Source: Variovorax boronicumulans NBRC 103145 (GTDB lineage Bacteria; Pseudomonadota; Gammaproteobacteria; Burkholderiales; Burkholderiaceae_C). From it: a stretch of 64,000 bases of DNA. Where the stretch lies: positions 1-64,000 of the forward strand of contig NZ_BCUS01000007.1 in NCBI RefSeq assembly GCF_001591345.1. Reading direction: 5' to 3'. The position numbers and the translations under genes were made by a program. Positions 44,607 through 61,279 of this stretch are shown piece by piece. The notes below the pieces were generated by a model that was not told the origin of the DNA, did no database searches, and was given only the letters and a program-made list of their open reading frames with translations. Numbering within the stretch: the stretch's first letter is position 1; each line of letters starts with the position of its first letter.

Positions 44607-46043
44607 TCAGGCCAACGTGTAAGCCGTCTTCACCGTCGTGAAGAACTCCTGCGCGTACTTGCCCTGCTCGCGCGGCCCGTAGCTCGAGCCCTTGCGACCA
44701 CCAAACGGCACGTGATAGTCCACCCCCGCCGTCGGCAGGTTCACCATCACCATCCCCGCCTGGCTGTGGCGCTTGAAGTGCGTCGCGTACTTCAGCGAGG
44801 TCGTCGCGATGCCGGCCGACAAACCGAACTCCGTGTCGTTGGCCGTCGCCAGTGCCTCTTCGTAGTTCTTCACGCGGATCACGCTCGCCACCGGCCCGAA
44901 CACTTCCTCGCGGTTGATGCGCATGTTCGCGGCGGACTCGCTGAACAGTGCGGGCGACATGTAGTAGCCGTCCGTCTCCAGCTTCAGCAGTTCGCCGCCA
45001 GCCGCCAGCGTGGCGCCTTCGCCCTTGCCGATGGCGACGTATTCCATGTCCTGGTCGAGCTGCGACTTCGACGACACCGGCCCCACGTCGGTGCCCTGCG
45101 CGAGCGCATCGCCGACCTTGATCTTCGCCATGCGCGCCTTCATCGCCTCGATGAACTTCGGGTAGATGCCCTCGGTCACGATGAGTCGGCTCGACGCCGT
45201 GCAGCGCTGGCCCGTCGAGTAGAACGCGCTCTGCACACTGAGCTCTACGGCCTGCGCGAGGTCGGCATCGTCGAGCACCACCTGCGGGTTCTTGCCGCCC
45301 ATTTCGAGCTGCACCTTCTTGTGGTTGGTGACGCACTGGATCGCGATGTTGCGGCCCACGCCCACCGAGCCCGTGAAGCTGATCGCATGGATGCCCGGGT
45401 GGTTCACCAGCGCATCGCCGATCACGCTGCCGCGCCCCATCACGAGATTGAACACGCCGGCCGGAATGCCCGAGCGGCTGATGATCTCAGCCAGCGCCCA
45501 CGCGCAGCCCGGCACGAGGTCGGCGGGCTTGAGCACCACGCAGTTGCCGAAGGCCAGCGCGGGTGCGATCTTCCAGGCGGGAATCGCGATGGGAAAGTTC
45601 CACGGCGTGATGAGCCCGACCACACCGACCGGCTCGCGCGTGATCTCCACGCCGATGTTCGGGCGCACCGACGGCAGCACCTCGCCCGACAGGCGCAGGC
45701 ACTCGCCCGCGAAGAACTTGAAGATCTGCCCCGCGCGCGTGGCCTCGCCGATGCCTTCGGCCTTGGTCTTGCCTTCTTCGCGTGCGAGCAGCGTGCCGAG
45801 CTCTTCCTTACGCGCGAGGATCTCGGTGCCGATCTTGTCGAGCGCGTCGGAGCGCGCCTGGATGCTGCCCGTCGCCCAGGCGGGGAAGGCGGCGGTGGCG
45901 GCGGCCACAGCGGCGTCGACCTGGCCCTTGTCGCCCTGCGTGTACTGGCCCAGCACGTCGGCCAGGTTGCTGGGGTTGATGTTGGGGCTGTAGCTTTGGC
46001 CGGCCAACCATTCGCCATTGATGAGGTTGTTGAATTCAGTCAT
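44607..46043 (-). CDS. Alpha-ketoglutarate semialdehyde dehydrogenase
   Basis: Aldehyde dehydrogenase of 478 residues. N149 (TPWNF), the general base E247 (LEMGGKNPQ) and the nucleophile C281 (GQRCTAS) are all present, and the C-terminal FGGRKGSSYGPREQG is typical of the 2,5-dioxovalerate group. It oxidises alpha-ketoglutarate semialdehyde to alpha-ketoglutarate, the last step of oxidative hexuronate/aldarate breakdown, feeding the TCA cycle. The substrate assignment rests partly on context: KdgD and GudD are in the same operon. AAGGA lies nine bases before the ATG. It is the last gene before the operon terminator. Confidence 0.92.
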   Translation of the reverse strand: MTEFNNLINGEWLAGQSYSPNINPSNLADVLGQYTQGDKGQVDAAVAAATAAFPAWATGSIQARSDALDKIGTEILARKEELGTLLAREEGKTKAEGIGEATRAGQIFKFFAGECLRLSGEVLPSVRPNIGVEITREPVGVVGLITPWNFPIAIPAWKIAPALAFGNCVVLKPADLVPGCAWALAEIISRSGIPAGVFNLVMGRGSVIGDALVNHPGIHAISFTGSVGVGRNIAIQCVTNHKKVQLEMGGKNPQVVLDDADLAQAVELSVQSAFYSTGQRCTASSRLIVTEGIYPKFIEAMKARMAKIKVGDALAQGTDVGPVSSKSQLDQDMEYVAIGKGEGATLAAGGELLKLETDGYYMSPALFSESAANMRINREEVFGPVASVIRVKNYEEALATANDTEFGLSAGIATTSLKYATHFKRHSQAGMVMVNLPTAGVDYHVPFGGRKGSSYGPREQGKYAQEFFTTVKTAYTLA

Positions 46044-46098
46044 CGTCGATGTCCTTGCTTGTGTGCTGTTGCGGTGAGGAGGTTGGAAAGTCTGAAGG

Positions 46099-47196
46099 CT
46101 AGGTGGCGCCTTCGGACTCCACGTAGAGGGCGTACAGCGAATGGCTGGCCGCCATGTAGAGGCGGTTGTTCTTGGGGCCGCCGAAGGTGAGGTTGGCACA
46201 GCGTTCGGGCAGGCGGATGAAACCGATGGGCTTGCCTTGCGCATTGAAGATCTTGACGCCATCGAGGTCTTCGGACTTCGCCTGCGGCTGATAGACCTTC
46301 ATGCCGTTGCCGGCATCGATGGGTTCGGGCGCGAGCGCGCCGTTCCAGCCCCAGCCCATCCAGAGGTTGCCGTCGCGGTCGACGCGAAAGCCGTCGAGCG
46401 CCGCAGCGCCCGTGCCATCGATGAGCTTCAGCTTGTTCGACACGCTGCCGTCGGCCGCCACGTCGTAGCTCCAGAGGCTGCGGTTGGGCGTGCCCTTCCA
46501 CTCGATGACGTAGAGCTTTTTCTCGTCCGGCGAGAAGGCCAGGCCGTTCGGGTTCACCAGGTCGGTGATCACCGCCGAGAGCTGGCCGTCGGGCGTGAGG
46601 CGGTACACGTTGGTCGTCGCCTGCTCGGGCGCGGCCTTCTCGCCTTCCCACGTGCCCGAGATGCCGAAGAGCGGGTCGGTGAACCACACGGTGTCGTCCG
46701 ACTTCACCACCACGTCGTTCGGCGAATTCAGCCGCTTGCCCTGATAGCGGTCGGCCAGCACGGTCATGCGCCCGTCGGCCTCGGTGCGCACCACGCGCCG
46801 CGTCACCGAGTGCTCGCAGCTGATGAGGCGGCCCTGCCGGTCGCGCGTGTTGCCGTTGCAGTAGCCGGCGTTCGCCTTGTGGACCTTGAACTCGCCGGTC
46901 TTCTCCTCGTAGCGCATCAGCCTGTTGTTCGGGATGTCGCTGCACACGAGGTAGCCCTCGCGCGGCAGGTACACCGGGCCCTCGGCCCAGCGCATGCCGG
47001 TGCCGACCTGCTCGAGCGTGCTGCTGTAGATGCGGTACTTCGCAAAGCTGGGGTCGAGGATCAGCACCGACGGGTCGGGATAGCGTTGCTGCGGCTTGAA
47101 GGGAAACGACTGGGCGCCCGCGGCGGCGGCCACGGCGCCGAGTGCCGAGCCGGCAGCCGCTTGCAGCAGGCGACGGCGATCCATGTGCTTGTTCAT
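46099..47196 (-). CDS. Exported SMP-30/gluconolactonase-type lactonase
   Basis: Six-bladed propeller hydrolase of 365 residues. The N-terminus carries a twin-arginine signal (MDRRRLLQAAAGSALGAVAA), so it is expected in the periplasm. Metal-binding segments are [29 protein letters not shown] and DGFRVDRDGN. It would open sugar-acid lactones. The start at 47196 has AAGGAGA six bases upstream. A second, unexported lactonase is encoded at 54037 in the other operon of this block, so the two could act on lactones in different compartments. Confidence 0.88.
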   Translation of the reverse strand: MNKHMDRRRLLQAAAGSALGAVAAAAGAQSFPFKPQQRYPDPSVLILDPSFAKYRIYSSTLEQVGTGMRWAEGPVYLPREGYLVCSDIPNNRLMRYEEKTGEFKVHKANAGYCNGNTRDRQGRLISCEHSVTRRVVRTEADGRMTVLADRYQGKRLNSPNDVVVKSDDTVWFTDPLFGISGTWEGEKAAPEQATTNVYRLTPDGQLSAVITDLVNPNGLAFSPDEKKLYVIEWKGTPNRSLWSYDVAADGSVSNKLKLIDGTGAAALDGFRVDRDGNLWMGWGWNGALAPEPIDAGNGMKVYQPQAKSEDLDGVKIFNAQGKPIGFIRLPERCANLTFGGPKNNRLYMAASHSLYALYVESEGAT

Positions 47197-47245: not shown

Positions 47246-48607
47246 TCAGCGGACCATGCAGGGGCGCTTGTTGTCGAAGGTCCAGTTCGGAATGAGGAAC
47301 TGCATCGCCTGCGCATCGTTGCGCGCGCCCAGGCCATGCTTCAGGTACAGCTGGTGCGCCTTCTCGACCTCGGCCATGTCGAGTTCGATGCCCAGGCCGC
47401 CGCGCGTGGGCACCTGCACGAGGCCGCCCTCGATCTGCAGCGGCGCCTTCGTGAGACGCTGGCCGTCCTGCCAGATCCAGTGCGTGTCGATGGCCGTGAC
47501 CTTGCCGGGTGCCGCCGCAGCCACGTGCGTGAACATCGCGAGTGACACGTCGAAGTGGTTGTTCGAATGCGAGCCCCAGGTCAGGCCCCAGGCCTGGCAC
47601 AGCTGCGCCACGCGCACCGAGCCCTGCATGGTCCAGAAGTGCGGGTCGGCCAGCGGAATGTCGACCGACTGCAGCGACAGGCTGTGCACCATCTCGCGCC
47701 AGTCGGTGGCGACCATGTTGGTGGCGGTGGGCAGGCCCGTGGCGCGGCGGAACTCGGCCATCACCTCGCGGCCCGAGAACACGCCCTCGGCGCCGCACGG
47801 ATCTTCGGCATAGGCCATCACGCCGTGCAGGTCGCGGCACAGACGGATGGCGTCGGCCAGCAGCCAGCCGCCGTTCGGGTCGAGCGTGACGCGCGCCTGC
47901 GGGAAGCGTTCGTGCAGCGCGCGGATCGCTTCGACCTCTTCCTCGCCGCGCAGCACGCCGCCCTTGAGCTTGAAGTCGGTGAAACCGTAGCGCGCATGCG
48001 TGGCCTCGGCCAGGCGCACGATGGCTTCGGGGGTCATCGCCTCTTCGTGGCGCACGCGGAACCAGTCGTTGTCGGCGCCGGGGTCGGACTCGTACGGCAG
48101 GTCAGTCTTGGTGCGGTCGCCCACGTAGAAGAGGTAGCCGAGCATCTGCACCGCATCGCGCTGCTGACCTTCGCCGAGCAGCGCGGCCACGGGCACGCCC
48201 AGGTGCTGGCCCAGCAGGTCGAGCAGCGCGGCTTCGGCGGCGGTCACGGCGTGGATGGTCACGCGCAGATCGAAGGTCTGCAGGCCGCGCCCGCCGCTGT
48301 CGCGCGCGGCAAAGGCGCTGCGCATGCGGTTGAGCACGGCGTTGTGGTTGCCGATGGGCTGGCCCACGATGAGGTCGCGCGCGTCTTCGAGCGTCTGGCG
48401 GATCTTCTCGCCGCCCGGCACTTCGCCCACGCCGGTGTGGCCGGCGCTGTCGGTGAGGATCAGCAGGTTGCGCGTGAAGAACGGGCCGTGCGCGCCGCTG
48501 AGGTTCATCAGCATGCTGTCGTCGCCGGCCACGGGCACGACGCGCATGGCGGTGACGACGGGCGCGCCCGACACGACGGAGGAAGCAGCGGATTCAGGAG
48601 AGGTCAT
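47246..48607 (-). CDS. gudD: D-glucarate dehydratase
   Basis: Enolase-superfamily dehydratase of 453 residues that converts D-glucarate to 5-keto-4-deoxyglucarate. Catalytic residues line up: the K-x-K motif at 213-215 (FKLKGG), metal ligands D243 (LDPNG) and E268 (AEDP), the later N297 region ([10 protein letters not shown]) and H347 with D in [10 protein letters not shown]. Length equals that of E. coli GudD. It lies between a Bug receptor gene and the exported lactonase gene. Together with KdgD and the semialdehyde dehydrogenase of the same operon it forms the complete glucarate-to-alpha-ketoglutarate route. Confidence 0.95.
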
Positions 48608-48623: not shown

Positions 48624-49613
48624 TCAGTCTGCGGTGATGTGGCGGGTGTCGATCAATGTCTTCCATCGCGCCCACTCGCGCAACTGGAAGGCGGTGAAGT
48701 CTTCGGGCGTGCTGGCGACGATTTCCAGGCCCTGGTCGAGCATGCGCTTCTTGGTCTCGGGGTCCTGCATGGCGGCGATGACCGCGTCGCTCAGCTTCTT
48801 CTTCGTGGCGGGCGGCAGGCCCTTGGGCGCGGCCATGCCCTGCCACGAATAGACCTCGGCGCCCTTCACGCCGGCTTCGGCGAGCGTGGGCACGTCGGGC
48901 AGCACGGGCGAGCGCTTGTCGCCGGTGACGGCCAGCGCGCGCAGCTTGCCGGCGCGGATGTGCGGCAGCACGGCGTTCACGTTCTGGAACGAGAAGTCGA
49001 CCTGGTTGCCCAGCAGGTCGTTCACCGCCGGAGCGCCGCCCTTGTAGGGCACGTGCACGCCTTCGGTCTTCGATTGCTGCCAGAAGAGTTCGGCCGACAG
49101 GTGGTCGGACGAGCCGTTGCCCGAACTCGCGAACGAGACCTTGCCGGGCGTCTTGCGCAACAGCGCGAGCACGTCGGCCACGCTGCGCTCGGGCCGCGCG
49201 ACGTTCGCCACGAGCACGTTGGGCGCCTGCACGGGCACGCTGATGTAGTCGAAGTCCTTGGTGGCGTCGTAGGGCACGCCTTTTTGCAGGTGCGGCGTGA
49301 CGACGAAGGCGCCGAGCGACGACACGAGCAGCGTGTAGCCGTCGGGCAGTGCGCGCTTCACGAAGCCGGTGCCGATGGTGCCGGTGGCACCGGGGCGGTT
49401 GTCGACGACGAAGCTGCCGCCGAGCTTGGCCTGCAGCTGCTGCGCCAGCGCGCGCGCCACCATGTCGGTGGAGCCACCGGCGGGGAACGGCACGATGATC
49501 GTCACAGGTTTCTGCTGCGGCCATGCCTCGGCCTGCGCCGAGGCGTGCAGCGGCGACAGCAGCGCGGTGGCGGCGAGCGCGAGGCCCGCGGCCAGGAGTT
49601 GTTGTCTCTTCAT
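48624..49613 (-). CDS. Bug-family extracytoplasmic solute receptor
   Basis: Periplasmic binding protein of 329 residues with a Sec signal ([20 protein letters not shown], cleavage near HASAQA). Bug features are [30 protein letters not shown] and [12 protein letters not shown]. Placed 16 bp upstream of gudD, it most likely captures glucarate or a related sugar acid. The partner permease is not seen: no TctA or TctB gene is in the window. Confidence 0.9.
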
Positions 49614-49627
49614 CGATCGCGCCTCCG

Positions 49628-50086
49628 TCAGGTCGTGAGGCGCACAGCCTGGCGCGCGAGCAGCTTCCACTCGCCGCCCTGCTTCTGCCAGACGCCAAGG
49701 ATCTTCAGCGCGACCTTGCCGGGCTTGCCCGAATCGTTGGTGTCGGCCGTGAGCGTGTGGCGCACGATGGCCGTGCGGCCGTCGACGACCTTCACGGTCT
49801 GGTCGGTGATCGCGATGGTCACGAAGTCGGACTTGCCGTCGAGCAGGTCGGCGATGAAGCTGGCCTGCGTGTCGACCTTGCCGCCCGAATGACCGTAGCT
49901 CAGGTCGTCGGCCACCAGCGCGCGCAGCGCGGCGGGCGTCGGGTCGACCATGGCGACGCGCAGCCGCTCGGCGGCCGCCGCAACTGCGGGTTCGGCTGCT
50001 GCGCCGCTGCTGCTGCCACCGCTGGCGGCACAACCCGCGAACACGGCGGTCGCTGCGGCGGCGAGCAGAAATTTCCTGATGAGCAT
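49628..50086 (-). CDS. NTF2-like (SnoaL/DUF4440 type) lipoprotein
   Basis: Lipoprotein of 152 residues: signal ending VFAGC (Cys19) followed by a Ser/Gly/Ala-rich linker, then a single NTF2-like cone fold (about 38-150) with DDLSYGHSGGKVDTQASFI and KLLARQAVRL. Proteins of this fold include isomerases, dehydratases and ligand binders; no catalytic residue can be named here. It lies within the glucarate operon between kdgD and a Bug gene. Its envelope location suggests handling of a sugar acid or lactone before uptake, but that is conjecture. Confidence 0.8.
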   Translation of the reverse strand: MLIRKFLLAAAATAVFAGCAASGGSSSGAAAEPAVAAAAERLRVAMVDPTPAALRALVADDLSYGHSGGKVDTQASFIADLLDGKSDFVTIAITDQTVKVVDGRTAIVRHTLTADTNDSGKPGKVALKILGVWQKQGGEWKLLARQAVRLTT

Positions 50087-50140
50087 GTCGTTGTCTCCTG
50101 TTGTTCTGTGGTGCTGGCGACTACTGCGATCAGTGCCGGC

Positions 50141-51052
50141 TTACTGCGGGCCGAGCGTGTCGATGAGCGCCTTCAGTGCGTCCATCTCGTCGGGCTTCAG
50201 GTCGGTCAGCGGCGCGCGCACGGGGCCGGCGTCGTGGCCGACGAGCTTGGCGCCCGCCTTCACGATGCTCACGGCGTAGCCGGGCACGCGGTTGCGCAGC
50301 TCCAGGTAGGGCATGAAGAAGTTCTTCAGCAGGCGGTGCTGCGTGGCCATGTCGTCGTTGGCGACCGCGTGATAGAAGTCCATCGCCGTCTTCGGAATGA
50401 AGTTGAAGACCGCCGAGGAGTACACGGGCGTGCCCATCGCCTTGTAGGCGGCGGCATAGACCTCGGCCGTGGGCAGGCCGCCCAGGTAGGCGAAGCGGTC
50501 GCCCATCTTCTGGAAGATCGCGACCATCGCCTCGATGTCGCCCACGCCGTCCTTGAAGCCGACGAGGTTCGGGTTGCGCTCGGCCAGGCGGGCCAGCGTG
50601 TCGGGCTTGAGGCGGCTCGAAGCGCGGTTGTAGACGATCACGCCGAACTTCACGCTCTTGCACACGGCCTCGACGTGCGCGGCCAGGCCTTCCTGGCCGG
50701 CTTCGGTGAGGTAGTGCGGCAGCAGCAGGATGCCGTGCGCGCCGGCCTTCTCTGCCGCTTGCGCGCATTGGATGGCGAAGCGCGTCGGGCCGCCGGCGCC
50801 GGCAATGATCGGCACCACGCCGCGGCAGGTGTCGACCGCGGTCTGGATGATGCCGGGGTACTCGTCACCCGTCAGCGAGAAGAACTCGCCCGTTCCGCCC
50901 GCGGCGAACAACGCGCTCGCGCCGTAGGGCGCCAGCCATTCGAGGCGCTCGATGTAGCCCTTCTTGTTGAAGTCGCCGTTGCTGTCGAAGTCGGTCAGCG
51001 GGAACGAGAGCAGGCCGGAGCCCATGATGGTTTTGAGTTCTTGCGGGTTCAT
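50141..51052 (-). CDS. kdgD: 5-dehydro-4-deoxyglucarate dehydratase
   Basis: Class I DHDPS-family lyase of 303 residues that dehydrates and decarboxylates 5-keto-4-deoxyglucarate to alpha-ketoglutarate semialdehyde. Schiff-base K167 is in VGFKDGVGD and the catalytic tyrosine Y141 in VIVYNRAS; the substrate loop [10 protein letters not shown] is near residue 52. The KdgD subgroup motif [12 protein letters not shown] is present. It is the second gene of the glucarate operon. Because both glucarate and galactarate enter at this intermediate, it also serves the GarD product of the other operon. Confidence 0.94.
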
Positions 51053-51110
51053 CGGAAGTCGTCCAGTGAAAAAAGAGAAATGAGGAAAAGAGAAAAGAAG
51101 AAGGGGCCGC

Positions 51111-52100
51111 TCAGTCGAGCTTGAGATTGGCCTGCTGGATCACTTGCGCCCAGCGCGCGCGTTCCTTGGCGAAGAACTGGTCCTGCTCGGGCGCGGTCAT
51201 GGTCACGACCTCGGCGCCCTGCCCCGCAAGGCGCGCCCGGATGTCGGGCGTGCGGATGATGCGGACCAGTTCCTTGTTGAGCCGGGCGATCACCGCGTCA
51301 GGGGTGCCGCGCGCTGCGACCACGCCCTGCCATGTGCCCGACTCGTAGCCGGGAACGCCCTGCTCCGCGATGGTCGGCACGCTGCCGATCAGCGGCATGC
51401 GCGTCGACTTCGACACGGCGATGAGCTTGAGCTTGCCGCTTTGCACATGCGGGTAGGTGGCCAGCATGCCGTTCATGAGCACCTGCGTCTGGCCCGCGAC
51501 GGTGTCGAGCACGGCCTGCACGCCGCCCTTGTAGGGCACGTACTCCCACTTGGCGCCGCTCTTGCGCTGCAGCTCGACGCCGGCCAGGTGCGCGGTGCTG
51601 CCGCTGGCGGTGACGGCGAAGTTGAGGTCGCTCTTCTTCGACAGCTCGACCAGTTCCTTCAGCGTGTTGGCCTGCACCGACGGGTGCACGACCAGCAGGT
51701 GCGGCGAGTAGGCCAGCATGGCCACGCTGCGCAGGTCCTTCGACGGATCGAACGGCAGCTTGGGGTACAGCGACGGGCTGATGGCCAGCGCGCCGAGGTC
51801 GCACAGCATGAGCGTGTGGCCGTCGGCCGGCGCCTTGGCCAGCATGTCGGCGCCGAGGTTGCCGTTGGCGCCCGCGCGGTTCTCGATGACCACGGGCTGG
51901 CCCAGCGCCTCGGACAGCGGCTGGCCGATGGCGCGCGCAATGATGTCCGACGAGCCGCCCGGCGGGTACGGCACGATCAAACGAATGGGCTTGGAAGGCC
52001 AGGTGCCGCCCGCCCCTTGCGCAAACGCGTGCAAGGGCAGGCTGGCGGCCAGTGTGGTGGCGAGGGCGGCGCCGAGCGCGCCGCGTCGGTTGACGGTCAT
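51111..52100 (-). CDS. Bug-family extracytoplasmic solute receptor
   Basis: Periplasmic binding protein of 329 residues with a signal peptide (residues 1-28, [23 protein letters not shown]). It contains [30 protein letters not shown] and [10 protein letters not shown]. It heads the seven-gene glucarate operon: AGGAG lies nine bases before its ATG, and the shared regulatory element is 56 bp upstream. Probable ligand: an aldarate or hexuronate. Together with 48624, 60273 and 61280 it makes four Bug receptors in this block. Confidence 0.9.
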
Positions 52101-52155
52101 GGGGGCTGTCTCCTGAGGTTCGATGCAGGCATGCGGGGCCGCGATGGCGCTGCAT

Positions 52156-52176
52156 GTTATCAGTCATCGTACAACT
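52156..52176 (-). promoter_or_regulatory. Shared aldarate-regulon operator/promoter element, glucarate operon
   Basis: On the minus strand the 21 bases begin AGTTGTACGATG and end GATAAC, the latter a plausible -10. It matches the element at 53108-53128 at 18 of 21 positions. The core is a variant of the GTTGT-ACG-ACAAC inverted repeat seen there. It lies 56 bp upstream of the first gene of the operon, so bound regulator would block the promoter. Confidence 0.75.
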
Positions 52177-52223
52177 AGAAAATCAGCTTGTCCAGACTTG
52201 AGCCCCGAAAACCCGGGGCGAAC

Positions 52224-53096
52224 TCAGCGCGAAGGGGTGTTGTCGGACGAGGCGGTGCCGTGGCCGGCCGCTTCCGCCCTGGCTTTTTGCTGTTGCGCGG
52301 CTTCCTGCGCCATGCGCAGCCGCTCGCGGCTGTTGGTCAGGTGAATGCGCATCGCGGCACGTGCCGACTCGGGGTCGCGGCGCGCGATGGCCGCGTAGAT
52401 TTCCTCGTGCTCGCGGTTCACGCGGCTCAGGTAGCTGCCGTCCTGCACGCGGATCGCGCTGATGCGCGTGCGCGGGATGATCGTCGTGCCCAGGTGCCGC
52501 ATGATGTCGGCGAAGTAGGGGTTGCCGGTCGACTGCGCGATCTCCAGGTGGAAGGCGAAGTCGGGTCCCACGGTGTCGCCGCCCACCTTGACGTTCTGCT
52601 CGAACGCGTCGAGCGCCTGGCGCATCGCGACCAGCTGCTCGTCGGTGCGCCGGCTCGCGGCCAGCCCGGCGGATTCGGTCTCCAGGCTGATGCGCAGCTC
52701 GAGCACGGCGAGCACGTCGACCGAAGTCGCGATCTCGCCGGGATCGAGGCGGAACACGCCGCCCATGCCACCCGGACGCGGCTGCAGCACGAAGGTGCCC
52801 ACGCCGTGCAGCGTCTCGACCAGCCCGCCCGCCTGCAGCTTGGACAGCGCCTCGCGCACCACGGTGCGGCTCACGCCGTAGGCCTGCATGATGGCCGACT
52901 CGGTCGGCAGCTTGTCGCCCGGGCGCAGCGACTGGCTGCGGATCTTCTCGCCCAGGTCTTCCACCAGCCCGTTCGCCAGGCCGCGCGCGCGCTGGCGCGG
53001 CCGCCCCACGAAAGCGGCGTTGCCCGCCGGGTTGTCAGCGGTCGTTGTCTGAACTTCGGGATTACCCGCAGTCGTTGAGGCCATGACGACGATCAT
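52224..53096 (-). CDS. FadR/GntR-family regulator of the aldarate regulon
   Basis: Regulator of 290 residues with a GntR winged helix at about 50-115 (GDKLPTESAIMQAYGVSRTV, VREALSKLQAGGLV) and a C-terminal FCD domain with conserved metal residues in DFAFHLEIA and the helix VNREHEEIYAAIARRD. Starts at 53096 (GAGG five bases upstream) or 53084 are possible; the former is used. The gene lies between the two aldarate operons, each with the same operator-like element, and so is probably their repressor, relieved by a uronate or aldarate. Its own promoter region overlaps the udh operator. Confidence 0.9.
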   Translation of the reverse strand: MIVVMASTTAGNPEVQTTTADNPAGNAAFVGRPRQRARGLANGLVEDLGEKIRSQSLRPGDKLPTESAIMQAYGVSRTVVREALSKLQAGGLVETLHGVGTFVLQPRPGGMGGVFRLDPGEIATSVDVLAVLELRISLETESAGLAASRRTDEQLVAMRQALDAFEQNVKVGGDTVGPDFAFHLEIAQSTGNPYFADIMRHLGTTIIPRTRISAIRVQDGSYLSRVNREHEEIYAAIARRDPESARAAMRIHLTNSRERLRMAQEAAQQQKARAEAAGHGTASSDNTPSR

Positions 53097-53107
53097 AATC
53101 CCCTCAC

Positions 53108-53128
53108 AGTTGTACGACAACAGATAAC
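53108..53128 (+). promoter_or_regulatory. Shared aldarate-regulon operator/promoter element, udh operon
   Basis: Contains the inverted repeat GTTGT-ACG-ACAAC (53109-53121) followed by GATAAC (53123-53128), a plausible -10. 18 of 21 bases match the element at 52156-52176. It lies 12 bp from the regulator start and 67 bp from the udh ATG, so it can control both directions. Confidence 0.78.
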
Positions 53129-53194
53129 TTATCACCTAAAAAGCGGTGACGACGTTGTCCACCTCCTCCGCTTCCCCTCACACATCCCGAAGAC

Positions 53195-54019
53195 ATGTCG
53201 ACGCCTGAAGCCCCCTCCCCCAAGCTTGGCCGCCTGCTGCTGACCGGCGCCGCCGGCGGCCTGGGCCGCGTGCTGCGCGAACGGCTCGCGCCTTTTGCGA
53301 ACGTGATCCGCCTTTCCGACATCGCCGACATCGCACCGGCCACGGGCGCGCATGAAGAAGTCGTGCCCTGCGACCTGTCCGACAAGGCCGCGGTCGACGC
53401 GCTGGTGGCCGGCTGCGACGCCATCGCCCATTTCGGCGGCGTGTCGGTCGAGCGCCCGTTCGAGGAAGTGCTCGAAGCCAACATCAAGGGCGTGTTCAAC
53501 CTGTACGAAGCCGCGCGCCGCCACGGCGTGAAGCGCGTGGTGTTCGCCAGCTCGAACCACGTGATCGGCTTCTACAAGCAGGACGAGCACATCGACGCGC
53601 ACGCCGCGCGCCGGCCCGACGGCTACTACGGCCTGTCGAAGTCCTTCGGCGAAGACATGGCGCAGTTCTACTTCGACCGCTGGGGCATCGAGACGGTGAG
53701 CATCCGCATCGGCTCGTCGTTCCCCGAGCCGCTCAACCGCCGCATGATGAGCACCTGGCTCAGCTACCGCGACCTCACGACGCTGATCCAGAAGTCGCTC
53801 TTCACGCCCGACGTGAAGCACACGGTGGTCTACGGCATGTCGGCCAACCGCGACCTGTGGTGGGACAACGCCGCCGCCGCGCACCTGGGTTTCGCGGCGC
53901 AAGACAGCTCCGAGGTGTTCCGCGACAAGGTCGAGGCGCAGCCGCCGGTGGCGCCCACCGACCCGAACGCCATCTACCAGGGCGGCGCCTTCACCGCACA
54001 AGGCCCGTTCGGCGACTGA
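53195..54019 (+). CDS. udh: Uronate dehydrogenase
   Basis: NAD-dependent SDR-fold dehydrogenase of 274 residues, matching the uronate dehydrogenases of Pseudomonas and Agrobacterium in length and motifs. Cofactor loop TGAAGGLG (17-24), S119/S120 in VFASSNHVIG and the Y145-x3-K149 pair (YGLSKS), with the characteristic ending SSNHV...DGYYGLSKSFGED. It oxidises galacturonate or glucuronate at C1 to the aldarolactone. No signal peptide: cytoplasmic. First gene of the plus-strand operon, directly after the shared operator, and 17 bp ahead of a lactonase gene that would open its product. Confidence 0.92.
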   Translation: MSTPEAPSPKLGRLLLTGAAGGLGRVLRERLAPFANVIRLSDIADIAPATGAHEEVVPCDLSDKAAVDALVAGCDAIAHFGGVSVERPFEEVLEANIKGVFNLYEAARRHGVKRVVFASSNHVIGFYKQDEHIDAHAARRPDGYYGLSKSFGEDMAQFYFDRWGIETVSIRIGSSFPEPLNRRMMSTWLSYRDLTTLIQKSLFTPDVKHTVVYGMSANRDLWWDNAAAAHLGFAAQDSSEVFRDKVEAQPPVAPTDPNAIYQGGAFTAQGPFGD

Positions 54020-54036
54020 ACAGGCCGCAGCACCGC

Positions 54037-54924
54037 ATGCAAGCCGAACTCGTTCTCGACGCGCGCAACGGCACGGGCGAAAGCCCGGTGTGGCTGGCCG
54101 CGCAGCAGGCGCTGTACTGGGTCGACATCCCCGCACGCACGCTCAACCGCTGGCACGCTGGCGAAGGCCATGCGCAGTGGCGCGCCGACGAAATGATTGC
54201 CTGCATCGCACCGCGTGCCGACCGGCCCGGCGAATGGATCGCCGGCATGGAAAGCGGGCTGTTCTCGCTGCGCCCGCGCACCGACGGCACGCTCGCGGCC
54301 ACGCCGCTCGCCCCGGTGGCGCACGCCGCGCCGGGCATGCGTTTCAACGACGGCCGCTGCGACCGGCAGGGCCGCTTCTGGGCCGGCACGATGCTGCTGG
54401 ACATGGCCGCCGGCGCGCGCGTCGGCCGCCTGTACCGCCACGGCCCCGGCGACGACGGCGCAACGCTGCAACTGGACGACCTGATCGTGCCCAACGGCCT
54501 GGCCTTCAGCCCCGACGGCCGCACGATGTACCTGTCGGACTCGCACCCGAGCGTGCAGGCCGTCTGGGCCTTCGACTACGACACCGACACCGGCACGCCG
54601 AGCAACCGCCGTCTCTTCGTCGACATGAATCCCCTGCCCGGCCGCCCCGACGGCGCGGCGATGGACGTCGACGGCTGCTACTGGATCTGCGGCAACGACG
54701 CCGGCCTGGTGCACCGCTTCACGCCCGACGGCCGGCTCGACCGTTCGCTCGCCGTGCCGGTGAAGAAGCCCGCCATGTGCGCCTTCGGCGGCCCGGGCCT
54801 CGACACGCTGTTCGTCACCTCGATCCGCCCCGGCGGCATCGACCTGTCGGACCAGCCGCTGGCCGGCGGCGTGTTCGCGCTGCGCCCCGGCGTGGCGGGC
54901 GTGCCAGAGCCGGCCTTCGGCTGA
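54037..54924 (+). CDS. Cytoplasmic SMP-30/gluconolactonase-type lactonase
   Basis: Six-bladed propeller lactonase of 295 residues without a signal peptide. Metal-binding segments are GTGESPVWL (Glu15), [30 protein letters not shown] and [13 protein letters not shown]. It is 17 bp after udh, so it most likely hydrolyses galactaro- or glucaro-1,4/1,5-lactone to the free aldarate. Residues ESPVW and NDGxxD are the calcium or zinc site seen in regucalcin-type proteins. The protein is in a different subgroup from the Tat-exported lactonase at 46099. Confidence 0.92.
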
Positions 54925-54970
54925 CCCCTTTTCTTTTTTATTGACGACAACCACCAAGAGGACGAGACAA

Positions 54971-55948
54971 ATGAAGCTCTACACGACACTCATCGCACTT
55001 GCTGCCGGCGCGGCGGCCGCGTTGACCACGCTGGCTGCCGGCGCCACCGAGTTCCGCTCGGCCGACATCCACCCCGACGACTACCCCACCGTGACCGCCG
55101 TGAAGTTCATGAGCGAACGGCTCAAGGCGCTGTCCGGGGGCAAGCACAGCATCAAGGTCTTCAACAACAGCGCGCTCGGCAACGAGAAGGACACGATCGA
55201 GCAGACCAAGATCGGCGCGCTGCAGATGGTGCGCGTGAACATCGCGCCCATGAACAACATCTGCCCCGAGACGCAGGTGCCGACCATGCCCTTCCTGTTC
55301 CGTTCAGTGGAGCACCTGCACAAGGTGCTCGACGGTCCGGTCGGCGAAGAAATCCTGAAGTCGTGCGAGAAGCAGGGCTTCGTGGGCCTGGCCTACTACG
55401 ACAGCGGCGCGCGCTCGATGTTCACGGCCAAGAAGCCCGTGCGCAACTTCGCCGACATGAAGGGTCTGAAGGTGCGCGTGCAGCAGTCCGACCTGTGGGT
55501 GTCGATGCTCGAGGCCATGGGCGCCAACGCCACGCCGATGCCGATGGGCGAGGTCTACACGGGCCTGAAGACCGGCCTCATCGACGCCGCCGAAAACAAC
55601 TACCCCACCTACGAAAGCGCGCGCGCCTTCGAGGTCGCCAAGTACTACAGCAAGACCGAGCACTCGATGGCGCCCGAGATGCTGCTGTTCTCCAAGCGCG
55701 CGTGGGACAAGCTCTCCACCGAAGAGCAGGGCTGGCTGCGCCAGGCCGCCAAGGAATCGGTGCCCTACATGCGCAAGCAGTGGCAGGAGCGTGAAGTGAA
55801 GTCGCTGGCCACGGTGAAGGCCGGCGGCGCCGAGATCATCGACGTCGACAAGGCCCCGTTCCAGGCCGCGATGAAGCCGGTATACGACAAGTTCATCACG
55901 GACGCGAAGCTCAAGGACCTGGTCAAGCGCGTCCAGGACACGAAGTAA
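54971..55948 (+). CDS. dctP: TRAP transporter substrate-binding protein, DctP family
   Basis: Periplasmic receptor of 325 residues with a signal peptide ([20 protein letters not shown], ending GATE). DctP markers: [27 protein letters not shown] and the conserved arginine segment [11 protein letters not shown] that binds a carboxylate. AGAGG is nine bases before the ATG at 54971. The neighbouring udh and lactonase genes make galacturonate or glucuronate the likely ligand; UxpB-type TRAP receptors for uronates are known. DctQ and DctM follow. Confidence 0.93.
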
Positions 55949-55963
55949 ACAGGGCTCGCCCCC

Positions 55964-56022
55964 AGGCTTCGCGCACTTCGTGACCCTGCACCCCTGCCAG
56001 GGGCCACGAAGAGGCGGAGCCT
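55964..56022 (+). other. Intercistronic stem-loop between dctP and dctQ
   Basis: AGGCTTCGCGCACTTCGTG (from 55964) pairs, with small mismatches, with the segment ending at 56022 (CACGAAGAGGCGGAGCCT), leaving a C/G-rich loop. A TTTTT run lies at 56028-56032. Such structures often protect the receptor mRNA and reduce read-through so that DctP is made in excess over the membrane subunits. It occupies most of the 96-bp dctP-dctQ gap. Confidence 0.7.
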
Positions 56023-56044
56023 CTCCATTTTTCGCGCTGGAAAT

Positions 56045-56533
56045 ATGTACACCAAACTTTGCCGCACGCTCGCCCGTGCCTGCATGTGGTTGGGCATCCT
56101 CGGTCTCGTCGCGGTGATCTGCGCCGTGAGCTGGCAGGTGTTCGGCCGCTACGTGCTCAACAACACCCCCACCTGGGCTGAGAGCCTCGCGCTGCTGCTG
56201 GTGCTCTACGTGACCATGCTGGGCGTGGCCGTGGGCGTGCGCGATGCGGGCCACATCGGACTTGAATCGTTCCTCGTGCTCGCGCCCGACTGGCTGCGCC
56301 TGAAGATGGAATACCTCATCCACGCGCTGATCCTGCTGTTCGGCCTGGCCATGGCTTGGAACTGCGCCTCGCTCGCCGAATCGGTGTGGGACTACCGCCT
56401 GCCCACGCTGTGGATTTCCGAAGGCTGGAAGTACGTGCCCGCCGCCGTGTCCGGCGTCCTCATCGTGATGTTCTCGATCGAACACATCATCGCCTTGGCC
56501 CAAGGCCGCGAAGTCGAACCCGCCTGGGGCTGA
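56045..56533 (+). CDS. dctQ: TRAP transporter small membrane subunit, DctQ family
   Basis: Small subunit of 162 residues with four membrane helices. The family patterns SWQVFGRYVLNNTPTWAESLALLL and VGVRDAGHIGLE are present. DctQ scaffolds the large subunit and contacts the receptor. It is separated from dctM by eight bases and from dctP by the stem-loop region. Confidence 0.92.
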   Translation: MYTKLCRTLARACMWLGILGLVAVICAVSWQVFGRYVLNNTPTWAESLALLLVLYVTMLGVAVGVRDAGHIGLESFLVLAPDWLRLKMEYLIHALILLFGLAMAWNCASLAESVWDYRLPTLWISEGWKYVPAAVSGVLIVMFSIEHIIALAQGREVEPAWG

Positions 56534-56541
56534 ACCTCATC

Positions 56542-57837
56542 ATGACGACCCCTCTTCTCATTCTTTGCCTCTCGTTCACGCTGTTCCTGCTGCTCGGCGT
56601 GCCGGTGGCGTTCTCGATCGGCCTGTCGGCCCTGGCCACGCTGCTGTGCGAAGGCCTGCCGCTCGCGGTGGGCTTCCAGCAGATGACCTCGGGCATGGGC
56701 ATCTTCTCGTTCCTGGCCATTCCCTTCTTCATCTTCGCCGGCGAGCTGATGCTCTACGGCGGCATCGCGGACCGCATCGTCAACTTCGCGCGCAACCTCG
56801 TGGGCCACGTGCGCGGCGGCCTGGGCATGTCGAACGTGGTGGCCTGCACCTTGTTCGGCGGCGTCTCGGGCTCGCCCGTGGCGGACGTCTCGGCCATGGG
56901 CGCCGTGATGATCCCGATGATGAAGAAGGAGGGCTACCACGCCGACTACGCGGTCAACGTGACGACCCACGCGGCCCTGGTCGGCGCGCTGATGCCGACC
57001 AGCCACAACCTCATCATCTATTCGCTCGCAGCGGGCGGCAAGGTGTCGATCGCGGCGCTGATCCTGGCGGCGCTGCTGCCGGCGGCCGTGCTCACGTTGA
57101 GCAACCTCGCGGCCGCCTACCTCGTGGCCGTGAAGCGCGGCTACCCGGCCGGCAGCTTCCCGGGCTGGGCCATCGTGGCGCGCTCGTTCGCGGCGGCGCT
57201 GCCGGGCCTGTTCATCGTGGTGCTGATCCTCGGCGGCATTTTGTCGGGCATCTTCACGGCGACCGAATCGGCGGCGGTGGCGGTGCTCTATGCGCTGGCG
57301 CTGACAATCTTCGTGTACCGCACGCTGAAGTGGGAGCACTTCATCAAGGCCGCCTCGAAGGCCGTGCGCACCACGGGCGTGATCCTGCTGCTGATCGGCA
57401 TCTCGAGCACCTTCGGCTACCTCATCAGCCTGTACGGCGTGGCCGAGCTCACGGGCCAGATGCTGTCGCAGGTGACGACCACGCCGTGGATGATCTTCCT
57501 GCTCATCAACATCATCCTGTTCGTGCTGGGCACCTTCCTGGACATGGCCGCGACCATCCTGCTGTGCACGCCGATCTTCCTGCCCATTGCACAGCAGTAC
57601 GGCATGACCTCGGTGCAGTTCGGCGTGGTGATGCTCATCAACTGCGCGCTCGGGCTGAACACGCCACCCGTGGGCACCACCCAGTTCGTCGGCTGCGCCA
57701 TCGGCGGGGTGTCGGTGGGCACGGTGATGCGCACGATCTGGCCCTTCTACGGCGCGCTGATCTTCGCGCTCGGCGTGGTCACCTTCGTGCCGGCGTTTTC
57801 CACCTGGCTGCCGAGCCTGTTCATGGTGGTGAAGTAA
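56542..57837 (+). CDS. dctM: TRAP transporter large membrane subunit, DctM family
   Basis: Large subunit of 431 residues with about twelve helices: the transport channel of the sodium-driven TRAP system. Markers are [39 protein letters not shown] and the C-terminal [16 protein letters not shown]. Start ATG at 56542; a longer in-frame lead lies inside dctQ. It forms a complete TRAP transporter with the two preceding genes. Confidence 0.95.
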
Positions 57838-57859
57838 AGAAAAGAGAAAGGGCCTCCCG

Positions 57860-59431
57860 ATGGCCGATGCGAACACCCGACCGCCGCTGTACATCCGCAT
57901 CCACGCGGCCGACAACGTCGCCATCGTCGCGAACGACGGCGGCCTGAAGGCCGGCACGGCCTTCGACGACGGCCTGGTGCTGGTCGACACCGTGCCCCAG
58001 GGCCACAAGGTGGCGCTCGTCGACCTGGCCGAAGGCGACGCCATCCGCCGCTACAACGTGGTGATCGGCTACGCGCTCAAGGCGCTGCCGCGCGGCAGCT
58101 GGGTGCACGAGCGCGTGATGCGCATGCCGGTCGCGCCCGAGCTCGACGGCCTGCCCATCGCCACGGTCAAGCCCCCTGCCCTGCCGCCGCTCGAGGGCTA
58201 CACCTTCGAGGGCTACCGCAACGCCGACGGCTCGGTAGGCACGCGCAACATCCTCGCGATCACGCAGACCGTGCAGTGCGTGGCGGGCGTCACCGAATTC
58301 GCCGTGCAGCGCATCAAGGCCGAGCTGCTGCCGAAGTACCCGAATGTCGACGACGTGGTGGCGCTCGAGCACAGCTACGGCTGCGGCGTGGCCATCGACG
58401 CGCCCGATGCCATCGTGCCGATCCGCACCCTGCGCAACATCAGCCTCAACCCCAACTTCGGCGGCGAGGTGATGGTCGTGAGCCTGGGTTGCGAGAAGCT
58501 GCAGCCCGAGCGGCTGCTGCCGCCCGGCACCATCCCCATCGCCGACCAGCGCGGTGCGCCCGCCGACGACCTCGACGTGGTCTGCCTGCAGGACGACGCG
58601 CACGTCGGCTTCATGTCGATGATCGATTCGGTGATGCGCCAGGCCGAGACGCACCTCACGCGCCTCAACAAACGCCGGCGAGAAACCGTGCCCGCGAGCG
58701 AACTCGTCGTGGGCGTGCAGTGCGGCGGCAGCGACGCCTTCTCGGGCGTCACCGCCAACCCGGCCGTAGGCTTTTGCACCGACCTGCTGGTGCGCGCGGG
58801 CGCCACCGTGATGTTCTCGGAAGTCACCGAGGTGCGCGACGGCATCGACCAGCTCACCTCGCGCGCGGCCACGCCCGAGGTGGCCGACGCCATGATCCGC
58901 GAGATGGCCTGGTACGACGCCTACCTCGACAAGGGCCGCGTCGACCGCAGCGCCAACACCACGCCGGGCAACAAGAAGGGCGGGCTGTCGAACATCGTCG
59001 AGAAGGCGATGGGCTCGATCGTGAAGTCGGGCTCGGCGCCGATCACCGGCGTGCTCGCGCCCGGCGAGAAGCTGGCGCACAAGGGCCTGATCTACGCCGC
59101 CACGCCGGCCAGCGACTTCATCTGCGGCACGCTGCAGCTGGCGGCCGGCATGAACCTGCACGTGTTCACCACCGGCCGCGGCACGCCCTACGGGCTGGCC
59201 GAGGTGCCGGTGATCAAGGTCGCCACGCGCAGCGACCTCGCGCGCCGCTGGCACGACCTGATGGACGTGAACGCAGGCCGCATCGCCGATGGCGAAGCCA
59301 GCATCGAGGACATCGGCTGGGAGATGTTCCGCCTGATGCTCGACGTGGCCAGCGGCCGCAAGAAGACCTGGGCCGAGCACTGGAAGCTGCACAACGCGCT
59401 GGTGCTGTTCAACCCGGCACCGGTCACCTGA
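57860..59431 (+). CDS. garD: Galactarate dehydratase (UxaA/GarD family)
   Basis: Iron-dependent dehydratase of 523 residues. Residues 1-100 are the SAF domain, followed by the altronate/galactarate dehydratase domain with [20 protein letters not shown] and [17 protein letters not shown]. Length equals E. coli GarD (523). It dehydrates galactarate to 5-keto-4-deoxyglucarate, the substrate of KdgD in the other operon. GarD, not altronate dehydratase, is preferred because udh and a lactonase precede it; UxaA (altronate) is the alternative. Enolase-type GudD and this unrelated enzyme thus occur in one regulon. Confidence 0.9.
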
Positions 59432-59457
59432 TCGAACCACCCTCACGGAGCACAGTC

Positions 59458-60219
59458 ATGGAAGACCTCAAGGACAAGACCGCCCTCGTCACCGGCGCCA
59501 GCACCGGCATCGGTGCCGCGGTGGCCATCGCGTTTGCCGCGCGCGGCATGCGCGTGGCCGTGCACTACAACAGCTCGACCGAGGCGGCGACCCGCGTGGT
59601 CGACACCATCCGCGCCGCCGGCGGCACGGCCTTCGCGCTGCAGGCCGACGTGCGCGACACCGCCGCGATCCGCGCCTGCGTGCAGGACACGACAGCGCAG
59701 TTCGGCCGCATCGACGTGCTGGTGAACAACGCCGGCAGCCTGGTCAAGCGCATGCCCATCGCCGAGTTCGACGATGCGCTGTTCGACGAAGTGATGCACA
59801 TCAACGCGCGCTCCGTGCTGGCCTTCTGCCGCGAAGCCGTGCCGCAGATGCGCAAGCAAGGCAGCGGCGCCATCATCAACGTGACCTCGGTGGCCGCGCG
59901 CACCGGCGGCGGGCCCGGCGCCTACCTGTACGCAGGCGCCAAGGGCTTCGTGAGCACCGCGACGCACGGTCTGGCCAGAGAGCTCGTGGGCGACCGCATC
60001 CGCGTGAACGCGGTGGCGCCCGGCGTGATCCAGACGCCGTTCCAGGACCGCTTCTCGACGCCCGCGATGCTCGAAACCTTCAGGACCGGCATCCCGATGG
60101 GGCGCCTGGGCACGGCCGACGAATGCGTGGGCGCTTTCCTGTACCTCGCGTCCGAACAGCTCTCGGGCTACGTGACGGGGCAGGTGCTCGAGGTGAACGG
60201 CGGGCAGTACATGCCCTGA
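59458..60219 (+). CDS. SDR-family oxidoreductase in the aldarate operon
   Basis: Short-chain dehydrogenase of 253 residues. Cofactor motif TGASTGIG (about 12-19), NNAG at 90, catalytic Ser in VTSVAARTG and YxxxK in YLYAGAKG. NVTSV... places it in the classical group with 3-oxoacyl-ACP reductase-like proteins. Position after garD suggests a sugar-acid substrate such as a keto-aldarate or gluconate-type compound; none can be assigned. CGGAG lies ten bases before the ATG at 59458. Confidence 0.88.
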   Translation: MEDLKDKTALVTGASTGIGAAVAIAFAARGMRVAVHYNSSTEAATRVVDTIRAAGGTAFALQADVRDTAAIRACVQDTTAQFGRIDVLVNNAGSLVKRMPIAEFDDALFDEVMHINARSVLAFCREAVPQMRKQGSGAIINVTSVAARTGGGPGAYLYAGAKGFVSTATHGLARELVGDRIRVNAVAPGVIQTPFQDRFSTPAMLETFRTGIPMGRLGTADECVGAFLYLASEQLSGYVTGQVLEVNGGQYMP

Positions 60220-60272
60220 CGCACTCCCCCGCCTTCTCAGCACAACAGATCAACAACGGAGACAGAGACATC

Positions 60273-61253
60273 ATGAAGAGAAGCCAGTTCGTCCGCGGCA
60301 TTGCCGCCCTTTCGGCCACCGCCGCCCTCTCGCTCGGCCTGGCCGCGCCCGCCGCGGCGCAAGCCAACGACTTCCCGAACCGCACCATCGAGCTGCTCGT
60401 GCCCTACCAGCCCGGCGGCGGCACCGACGGCCTGGCGCGCGCGTTTTCCGAAGCCAGCCGCAAGCACATCTCGCAGAGCATCGTGATCGTCAACCGCCCC
60501 GGCGCGGGCGGCGCCATCGGCTGGACCGAGGTGATCAACGCCAAGCCCGACGGCTACAAGCTCGCGGTGCTCACCGTGGAACTGCTCACGCTGCCGCACC
60601 TGGGCCTGGCCAAGTTCAACTACGACGACTTCCAGCCCATTGCGCAGCTCAACGCCGACCCGGCCGCGATCACCGTGAAGGCCGATGCGCCGTGGAACAC
60701 CATCGAAGAATTCCTCGCCGCCGCGAAGAAGTCGCCCGAGAGCATCCGCGTGGGCAACTCGGGCAACGGCTCGATCTGGCACCTGGCCGCCGCCGCGCTC
60801 GAAGACAAGACCGGCACCAAGTTCGGCCACATCCCGTTCCAGGGCGCCGCGCCTGCCGTGCTGGCGCTGCTGGGCGGCCACATCGAGGCCGTGGCCGTGA
60901 GCCCCGCCGAAGTCACGACGCACGTGCAGGGCGGCAAGCTCAAGGTGCTGATGGTGATGGCCGACAAGCGCGTGAAGGGCTTCGAGAAGATCCCGACCGC
61001 CAAGGAGCGCGGCATCGACCTGTCGATCGGCACCTGGCGCGGCCTCGGCGCACCGAAGAACACGCCACCCGAAGTGATGGCCAAGCTGCGCGAGATCACC
61101 GCCAAGACCGCCGCCGAGCCGCTGATGCACGAGGTGATGGACAAGCAGAACCTGGGCTACGTCTACACCGACGGCGCGGTGTTCAAGGAAACGCTGGCCA
61201 AGGACAACGCCTACTTCAAGGCGCTGATCACCAAGCTGAACATCAAGCCGTGA
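60273..61253 (+). CDS. Bug-family extracytoplasmic solute receptor
   Basis: Periplasmic binding protein of 326 residues, with signal peptide to about residue 29 (ALSLGLAAPAAAQA). It has TIELLVPYQPGGGTDGL and IVNRPGAGGAIG, with VGNSGNGSIWHLAAAAL in the domain-2 region. Follows the SDR gene by 53 bp in the aldarate operon. A carboxylate such as an aldarate or lactone derivative is the likely ligand. Confidence 0.9.
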   Translation: MKRSQFVRGIAALSATAALSLGLAAPAAAQANDFPNRTIELLVPYQPGGGTDGLARAFSEASRKHISQSIVIVNRPGAGGAIGWTEVINAKPDGYKLAVLTVELLTLPHLGLAKFNYDDFQPIAQLNADPAAITVKADAPWNTIEEFLAAAKKSPESIRVGNSGNGSIWHLAAAALEDKTGTKFGHIPFQGAAPAVLALLGGHIEAVAVSPAEVTTHVQGGKLKVLMVMADKRVKGFEKIPTAKERGIDLSIGTWRGLGAPKNTPPEVMAKLREITAKTAAEPLMHEVMDKQNLGYVYTDGAVFKETLAKDNAYFKALITKLNIKP

Positions 61254-61279
61254 ACGCGACACGACAAGGAGACACCGCC

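Follow-up and report, generated by a model that had tools for sequence, protein, structure and literature searches.

Gene content of the locus

The window analyzed here, a stretch of 64,000 nucleotides from Variovorax boronicumulans NBRC 103145 (contig NZ_BCUS01000007.1, positions 1 to 64,000), contains a regulator gene with catabolic genes of one pathway on both sides. The genes around it are as follows:

44607-46124, minus strand, aldehyde dehydrogenase (Pfam Aldedh 4.3e-160; best NCBIfam match NF042993 with 521 bits, below the cut-off of 770)
46099-47196, minus strand, SMP-30/gluconolactonase-type gene (Pfam SGL 4.6e-46)
47246-48607, minus strand, gudD, glucarate dehydratase (TIGR03247, 864 bits, cut-off 829)
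50141-51052, minus strand, kdgD, 5-dehydro-4-deoxyglucarate dehydratase (TIGR03249, 426 bits, cut-off 374)
51111-52100, minus strand, tctC-type solute receptor, the first leftward gene (Pfam TctC 4.3e-60)
52224-53084, minus strand, gguR-like regulator gene
53195-54019, plus strand, udh, uronate dehydrogenase, the first rightward gene (PDB 3rft 8.5e-88 and 6mfh, mutated, 1.3e-93)
54024-54923, plus strand, lactonase-type gene (named by eye; taken from 54025 in the comparison of relatives)
54941-55948, plus strand, TRAP DctP-type receptor (TIGR00787, NF037995; best PDB matches 4mhf and 4mij, 8.2e-137)
56045-56533, plus strand, TRAP DctQ, and about 56542-57837, plus strand, TRAP DctM (both named by eye from open reading frames)
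57860-59431, plus strand, garD, galactarate dehydratase (TIGR03248, 941 bits, cut-off 731)

An oxidative route leads from hexuronates and aldarates towards 2-ketoglutarate (PMC6353982), and judged by their sequences, the leftward and rightward genes together are this route. The aldehyde dehydrogenase, whose substrate we infer, is likely the 2-ketoglutarate semialdehyde dehydrogenase. An initial sequence-only reading had named both gene sets aldarate operons, which is nearly right; the rightward set, with udh, the TRAP transporter, and garD, is better described as a putative hexuronate-plus-galactarate operon. About four TctC/Bug-type receptor genes, three of them named by eye, lie within 14 kb (window 48624-62272), at 48624-49.6k, 51111-52100, 60.2k-61253, and 61.3k-62272, and no tctA or tctB was noticed by eye in the open reading frame list for 45-62 kb.

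The regulator consists of an N-terminal GntR helix-turn-helix (HTH) domain (PF00392, 8.1e-22) and a C-terminal FCD domain (PF07729, 3.4e-29), both above cut-off, which identifies it as the FadR-type protein that had been suspected between the two elements described below. Its best NCBIfam match is NanR (NF003011), with 119 bits against a cut-off of 260, and it also falls far below the cut-offs of the ExuR model (71 of 396 bits) and the Uxu model (83 of 442). In a sequence search of the PDB, it was closer to PdhR (9jpj, 1.1e-27) than to NanR (6on4, 1.8e-18). The N-terminal extension (window 52970-53084, minus strand) is variable among orthologs, and those compared by eye carry a basic stretch before the HTH, GRPRQRARGL in the window and RRRPRTL in others.

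The two predicted operator elements and their rarity

Two similar 21-bp elements flank the regulator gene, one reading AGTTGTACGATGACTGATAAC on the minus strand at 52156-52176 and the other AGTTGTACGACAACAGATAAC on the plus strand at 53108-53128. They agree at 18 of 21 positions, exactly where the sequence-only reading had placed them, and form an inverted pair (I2) that is 86% complementary. Read from the other strand, they contain the following predicted operators:

52156-52175, plus strand, predicted operator 1, GTTATC A GTCATC GT ACAAC, belonging to the putative leftward tctC-kdgD-gudD operon; third half-site at 52156-52161 and imperfect palindrome core at 52163-52175
53109-53128, minus strand, predicted operator 2, GTTATC T GTTGTC GT ACAAC, between gguR and udh; third half-site at 53123-53128 and perfect palindrome core at 53109-53121

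The inverted repeat GTTGT-ACG-ACAAC, earlier taken as the core of both elements, is perfect in the copy at 53108, but the copy at 52156 reads GTTGT-ACG-ATGAC with only 3/5 arm positions paired. This difference in symmetry between the two operators is kept in relatives.

A degenerate 21-mer built from both copies matched only these two places in the window at up to three mismatches and gave no match across 100 dinucleotide shuffles of the window. The search was extended to the whole genome (6,724,210 bases, 287 contigs), where the 13-bp core GTTGTACGAYRAC had two exact matches, namely the two operators, and 21 more at one mismatch versus 151 for the reversed control, while the 20-bp consensus GTYRTMNGTYRTCRTACAAC had two exact matches and two further places with three mismatches each (reversed control, 22). 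The full element is present just twice in 6.72 Mb, rather than in many copies at unrelated promoters. A single FadR-type site has the pattern TNGTNNNACNA, which is fitted by TTGTACGACAA at 53110-53120 in operator 2 and partly by operator 1; a scan for this pattern is uninformative when taken alone, with five matches in the window versus 3.9 by chance. The FadR-subfamily consensus is likewise palindromic, its short centre being flanked by GT and AC (PMC4494728).

Conservation among relatives

The first ortholog search, for which a few positions of the core patterns were kept degenerate, found the operator 2 core kept in 48/48 regulator loci and the operator 1 core in 47/47 loci reaching far enough, in each case in addition to the window; locus L044 ends before operator 1. 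Searched at 1e-40, the regulator was detected in 115 of 250 genomes of the family, the window's genome among them, and 50 of these 115 loci were examined, comprising the best 30 (the window's own included) and 20 picked from the rest. With one mismatch allowed at most, the 400 bp upstream of the regulator contained operator 2 in 47/50 loci (not in L107, L112, and L115), and the 500 bp downstream contained operator 1 in 43/50 (not in L093, L099, L101, L107, L110, L113, and L116). Two of the loci showed an additional exact operator core: L100 has a second one in the stretch separating gguR from udh, and in L110 it is close to udh, a long way upstream of gguR.

When the loci were pooled, with L073 left out as a presumed duplicate of L001 and the window replacing L072, 94 of the 97 regulator loci, the window included, had operator 2 and 89 had operator 1. 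Counts over all loci contain near-duplicate genomes (e.g., L012 and L074), and the sets to weigh are the non-redundant ones, which hold 56 operator 1 sites and 47 operator 2 sites with less than 60% identity over 113 bp. The neighbor genes around the regulator in relatives are hexuronate/aldarate genes. The closest named relative by the regulator is Variovorax sp. Root473 (96% identical), and in a class-wide sample of 274 genomes searched at 1e-45, the regulator was found only in the window's genome and one genome of the same family. As far as comparison goes, the pooled counts and the lack of a further full element in the genome agree well with the earlier prediction that a single repressor controls both operons as well as itself.

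A putative third half-site beside the palindrome

The hexamer GATAAC that ends both window elements reads GTYRTM on the other strand and is a copy of the half-site, placed 7 bp from the palindrome at both operators. In column profiles of the 56 and 47 non-redundant sites, oriented by gene context alone, flank columns -7 to -2 read GTYRTM at both operators. The opposite flank showed weak conservation at operator 1 (columns 13-16, 0.3 to 0.7 bit) and hardly rose above background at operator 2. The exact GTYRTM occurred at offset -7 in 41/56 operator 1 and 30/47 operator 2 sites, leaving an inexact third half-site in 15/56 and 17/47. At 82 control offsets, it occurred on average in 0.12 operator 1 and 0.17 operator 2 sites and at most in 1 and 3, respectively; these offsets included -14, the place of the fourth box described below and the source of the control maximum at operator 2. 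The mirror position in the other flank carried it in 0/56 and 2/47 sites. Among 87 loci with both operators, the third half-site was exact at both in 49 and at one or both in 80. A half-site-like box located 7-12 nt from the site centre and standing above the control positions is thus found at both operators, and by its sequence pattern, the GATAAC flank behaves as a putative third half-site and not as a -10.

One further box was noted at operator 2, on weak evidence:

53130-53135, minus strand, weak fourth box GTGATA, with one mismatch to GTYRTM, one 7-bp step further out

This box was present at no more than one mismatch in 15/47 operator 2 sites (three exact; the window among the 15) and 4/56 operator 1 sites. 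With it, the flank of operator 2 becomes a run of up to three direct half-site copies.

Predicted promoters at the two operators

Two promoters overlapping the operators were predicted in the window:

52166-52194, minus strand, predicted sigma-70 promoter of the leftward operon, -35 TGGACA at 52194-52189, 17-bp spacer, -10 TACGAT at 52171-52166 inside operator 1
53092-53120, minus strand, predicted regulator promoter, -35 TTGTCG at 53120-53115 inside operator 2, 17-bp spacer, -10 TATGAT at 53097-53092, scoring 9/12

The leftward promoter also scores 9/12, and the promoter scan of the region found two versus 0.1 in shuffles. The tctC-kdgD-gudD operon likely has TACGAT, inside operator 1, as its -10, a better one than GATAAC. 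Either TACGAT or TATGAT (TAYGAT) stands here in 52/56 non-redundant operator 1 loci, and the same hexamer place at operator 2 has C as its last base in 45/47. The match to TTGACA upstream of operator 1 averages 3.07 of 6 at spacer 17 and 2.09 at spacer 18 in the non-redundant loci, all remaining spacers in the range 8 to 25 giving 0.77 to 1.59; at spacer 17 it reaches 4 of 6 in just 24/56. The imperfect palindrome of operator 1 can be explained by the -10 embedded within it, the conserved imperfection being the price of TAYGAT.

The ATG of the regulator gene at 53084 lies 7 nt past the -10 of its predicted promoter (53084-53097). A -10 matching at 5 of 6 positions is present at this place in 71/94 loci, the other 23 lacking this layout, and a start codon follows 6-7 nt past it in 71/71 such loci (25/25 non-redundant), as ATG in 70 and GTG in one. 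Because of this short distance, the gguR mRNA is predicted to be probably leaderless. In L022, the ATG after the -10 is out of the regulator's open frame as read. The upstream GTG at 53135 was considered as the regulator start and rejected, since the operator would then fall in the coding region and the ATG at 53084 fits the promoter and the relatives.

On the udh side, 62/94 loci (32/47 non-redundant) carry a promoter that scores at least 9/12 and stops 1-13 bp short of the operator 2 core, versus 1.1% of shuffles. These promoters carry the -35 TTGACA in 44/62, and their commonest form is TTGACA-18-GATAAT (22). The same scan recognised no udh promoter in the window. In 32/62 loci, gguR and udh have opposed -10 regions that overlap immediately ahead of the operator 2 core, reading ATTATCAT on the gguR strand; in many of these 32, the first gguR codons contain the -35 TTGACA of udh.

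Proposed regulation and alternative explanations

The sequences of the two elements, their uniqueness in the genome, their conservation, and their positions relative to the predicted promoters are observed. From these we infer, with a probability of about 0.88, that both are operators of the GguR-like regulator encoded between them, which would bind the palindrome as a dimer, make use of the third half-site, and repress by promoter occlusion. A regulator dimer would sit on the 13-bp palindrome GTYRT-CRT-ACAAC, and the adjoining GTYRTM, as a third half-site, would strengthen or extend the occupancy, perhaps via a second dimer. At operator 1, the bound repressor would cover TACGAT, the -10 of the leftward operon, and keep RNA polymerase out; at operator 2, it would cover the -35 of the regulator's own promoter and, in many relatives, also the region where the udh-TRAP-garD operon starts. 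The most likely mode of action is occlusion, two operators serving to block three promoters, and release of the repressor by a sugar acid or a pathway intermediate would be expected. On this sequence evidence, one GntR/FadR-type repressor very probably controls two sugar-acid operons and itself.

Several other explanations bear on parts of this reading. That the two elements resemble each other by chance or as a relic of duplication is hardly conceivable; there are just two copies of 21 bp, but both places are conserved in 56 and 47 loci less than 60% identical over 113 bp, and the shuffled windows gave no match. It is also very improbable that GATAAC forms the -10 of each element with the palindrome between -35 and -10, as had been suggested from the sequence. 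Both window elements end in this hexamer, and A/T-rich bases lie beyond it in relatives. However, the hexamer ends in C in 48/56 and 38/47 non-redundant sites, although a -10 calls for T there, and a TTGACA-like -35 (4 of 6) stands at spacer 17 in just 6/56 and 2/47; with this conserved C, no -35 signal upstream, and a better promoter at operator 1, GATAAC was rejected as a -10.

The role of the flank leaves more room. A single dimer on the 13-bp palindrome, with GTYRTM contacted by a basic arm before the HTH or fixing the shape of the DNA, is a real possibility, though one we hold to be the lesser. The basic stretch preceding the HTH in the orthologs compared by eye would suit such an arm, and a 17-bp genomic part from Polaromonas is still called a GguR binding site (PMC8376909) without most of the third half-site, so binding in vitro may not require the third half-site. 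The flank, however, is a half-site repeat down to its degenerate positions, a feature that contacts by an arm would not call for. Rather unlikely is an assembly like that of NanR, in which several dimers would bind cooperatively to an array of half-sites with the aid of N-terminal extensions. NanR is the best NCBIfam match of the regulator, though below cut-off, the weak fourth box in 15/47 operator 2 sites, the window included, gives up to three direct copies, and three NanR dimers bind (GGTATA)3 through a 32-residue extension (PMC8012715). Against it, PdhR is closer than NanR by the PDB search, the two half-sites of the core are inverted, and operator 1 hardly ever has the fourth box (4/56). 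The extension is also poorly conserved: it is short in L102, where about 20 residues precede the first HTH helix versus 40 in the window, and this locus keeps exact third half-sites at both operators.

Within the preferred reading of two operators for one GguR-like repressor, a more specific version is put forward tentatively, at somewhat less than even odds: the GguR operator would have at least three half-sites of fixed polarity, the aldarate operator would be dual-coded, its palindrome holding the -10 hexamer TAYGAT and being kept imperfect by it, and one shared perfect site, often with a fourth box, would control the leaderless gene of the regulator itself as well as, in many relatives, the promoter of udh. 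If so, the weaker aldarate operator would open first, and the hexuronate operon and the regulator later. The analysis turns a visual match into a testable map of two operators, three promoters, and one repressor, offers in the embedded -10 a reason for the conserved operator asymmetry, and, on the practical side, defines a compact sugar-acid sensor. For the third half-site, the embedded -10, and the leaderless gguR, no claim of being unpublished is made, the literature covered being that under open licence.

Comparison with known systems

The original GguR study is reportedly that of Bouvier et al. 2019, J Bacteriol 201:e00431-18. In Halomonas, GguR is the regulator of a galactarate/glucarate operon and a udh-UxuPQM operon (PMC5507952). 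The window resembles this regulon in its GntR-family regulator, its udh operon with a UxuPQM-type TRAP transporter, and its galactarate/glucarate operon with a TctC-type receptor, the regulator lying beside udh, TRAP, garD, gudD, kdgD, and tctC; unlike Halomonas HL-93, it has lactonase-type genes where Gli and Gci are named (PMC5507952). A GguR site of Polaromonas sp. JS666 has been printed with the core GTCATCAGACAAC (PMC8376909), to which the operator 1 core GTCATCGTACAAC is identical at 11/13 positions; the window site differs in its centre, which is GT instead of AG. The exact Polaromonas core lies within 400 bp upstream of 8/50 orthologs (L091, L098, L099, L103, L106, L109, L111, and L114), and an exact search for the full Polaromonas 17-mer found it in 0/399 family genomes. 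The regulator and its predicted regulon are filed as GguR-type, as genes and operator core match.

Additional weaker half-sites 7-12 nt from the centre have been reported in 13 groups of the FadR subfamily, given as 'data not shown' and with their role left to experiment (Suvorova et al. 2015, PMC4494728). The box in the window, centred about 10.5 nt from the core centre, is like these, but its conservation is good, though below that of the core, and it occurs on one side only at both operators; GguR is unnamed in the passages of that paper on additional half-sites. The present locus adds a clear and widely conserved case to the extra half-sites beside GntR operators (PMC4494728).

Escherichia coli NanR on (GGTATA)3 is, like the present regulator, a FadR-subfamily sugar-acid repressor with repeated half-sites, acting on direct repeats only and needing its N-terminal extension for cooperativity (PMC8012715). 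Here, in contrast, an inverted pair is joined by a single direct copy, or by two in some of the operator 2 sites, and the extension is variable, rather than direct repeats only being combined with a long conserved extension. E. coli DgoR, ExuR, and UxuR are similar as GntR/FadR repressors of sugar-acid catabolism relieved by a substrate or intermediate, and the DgoR sites overlap the dgo promoter (PMC12288454), but they serve other pathways than the window regulon. Taken against these systems, the locus is a Variovorax-group member of a known regulon, and its operator feature is of a known general kind, of which it is a strong example.
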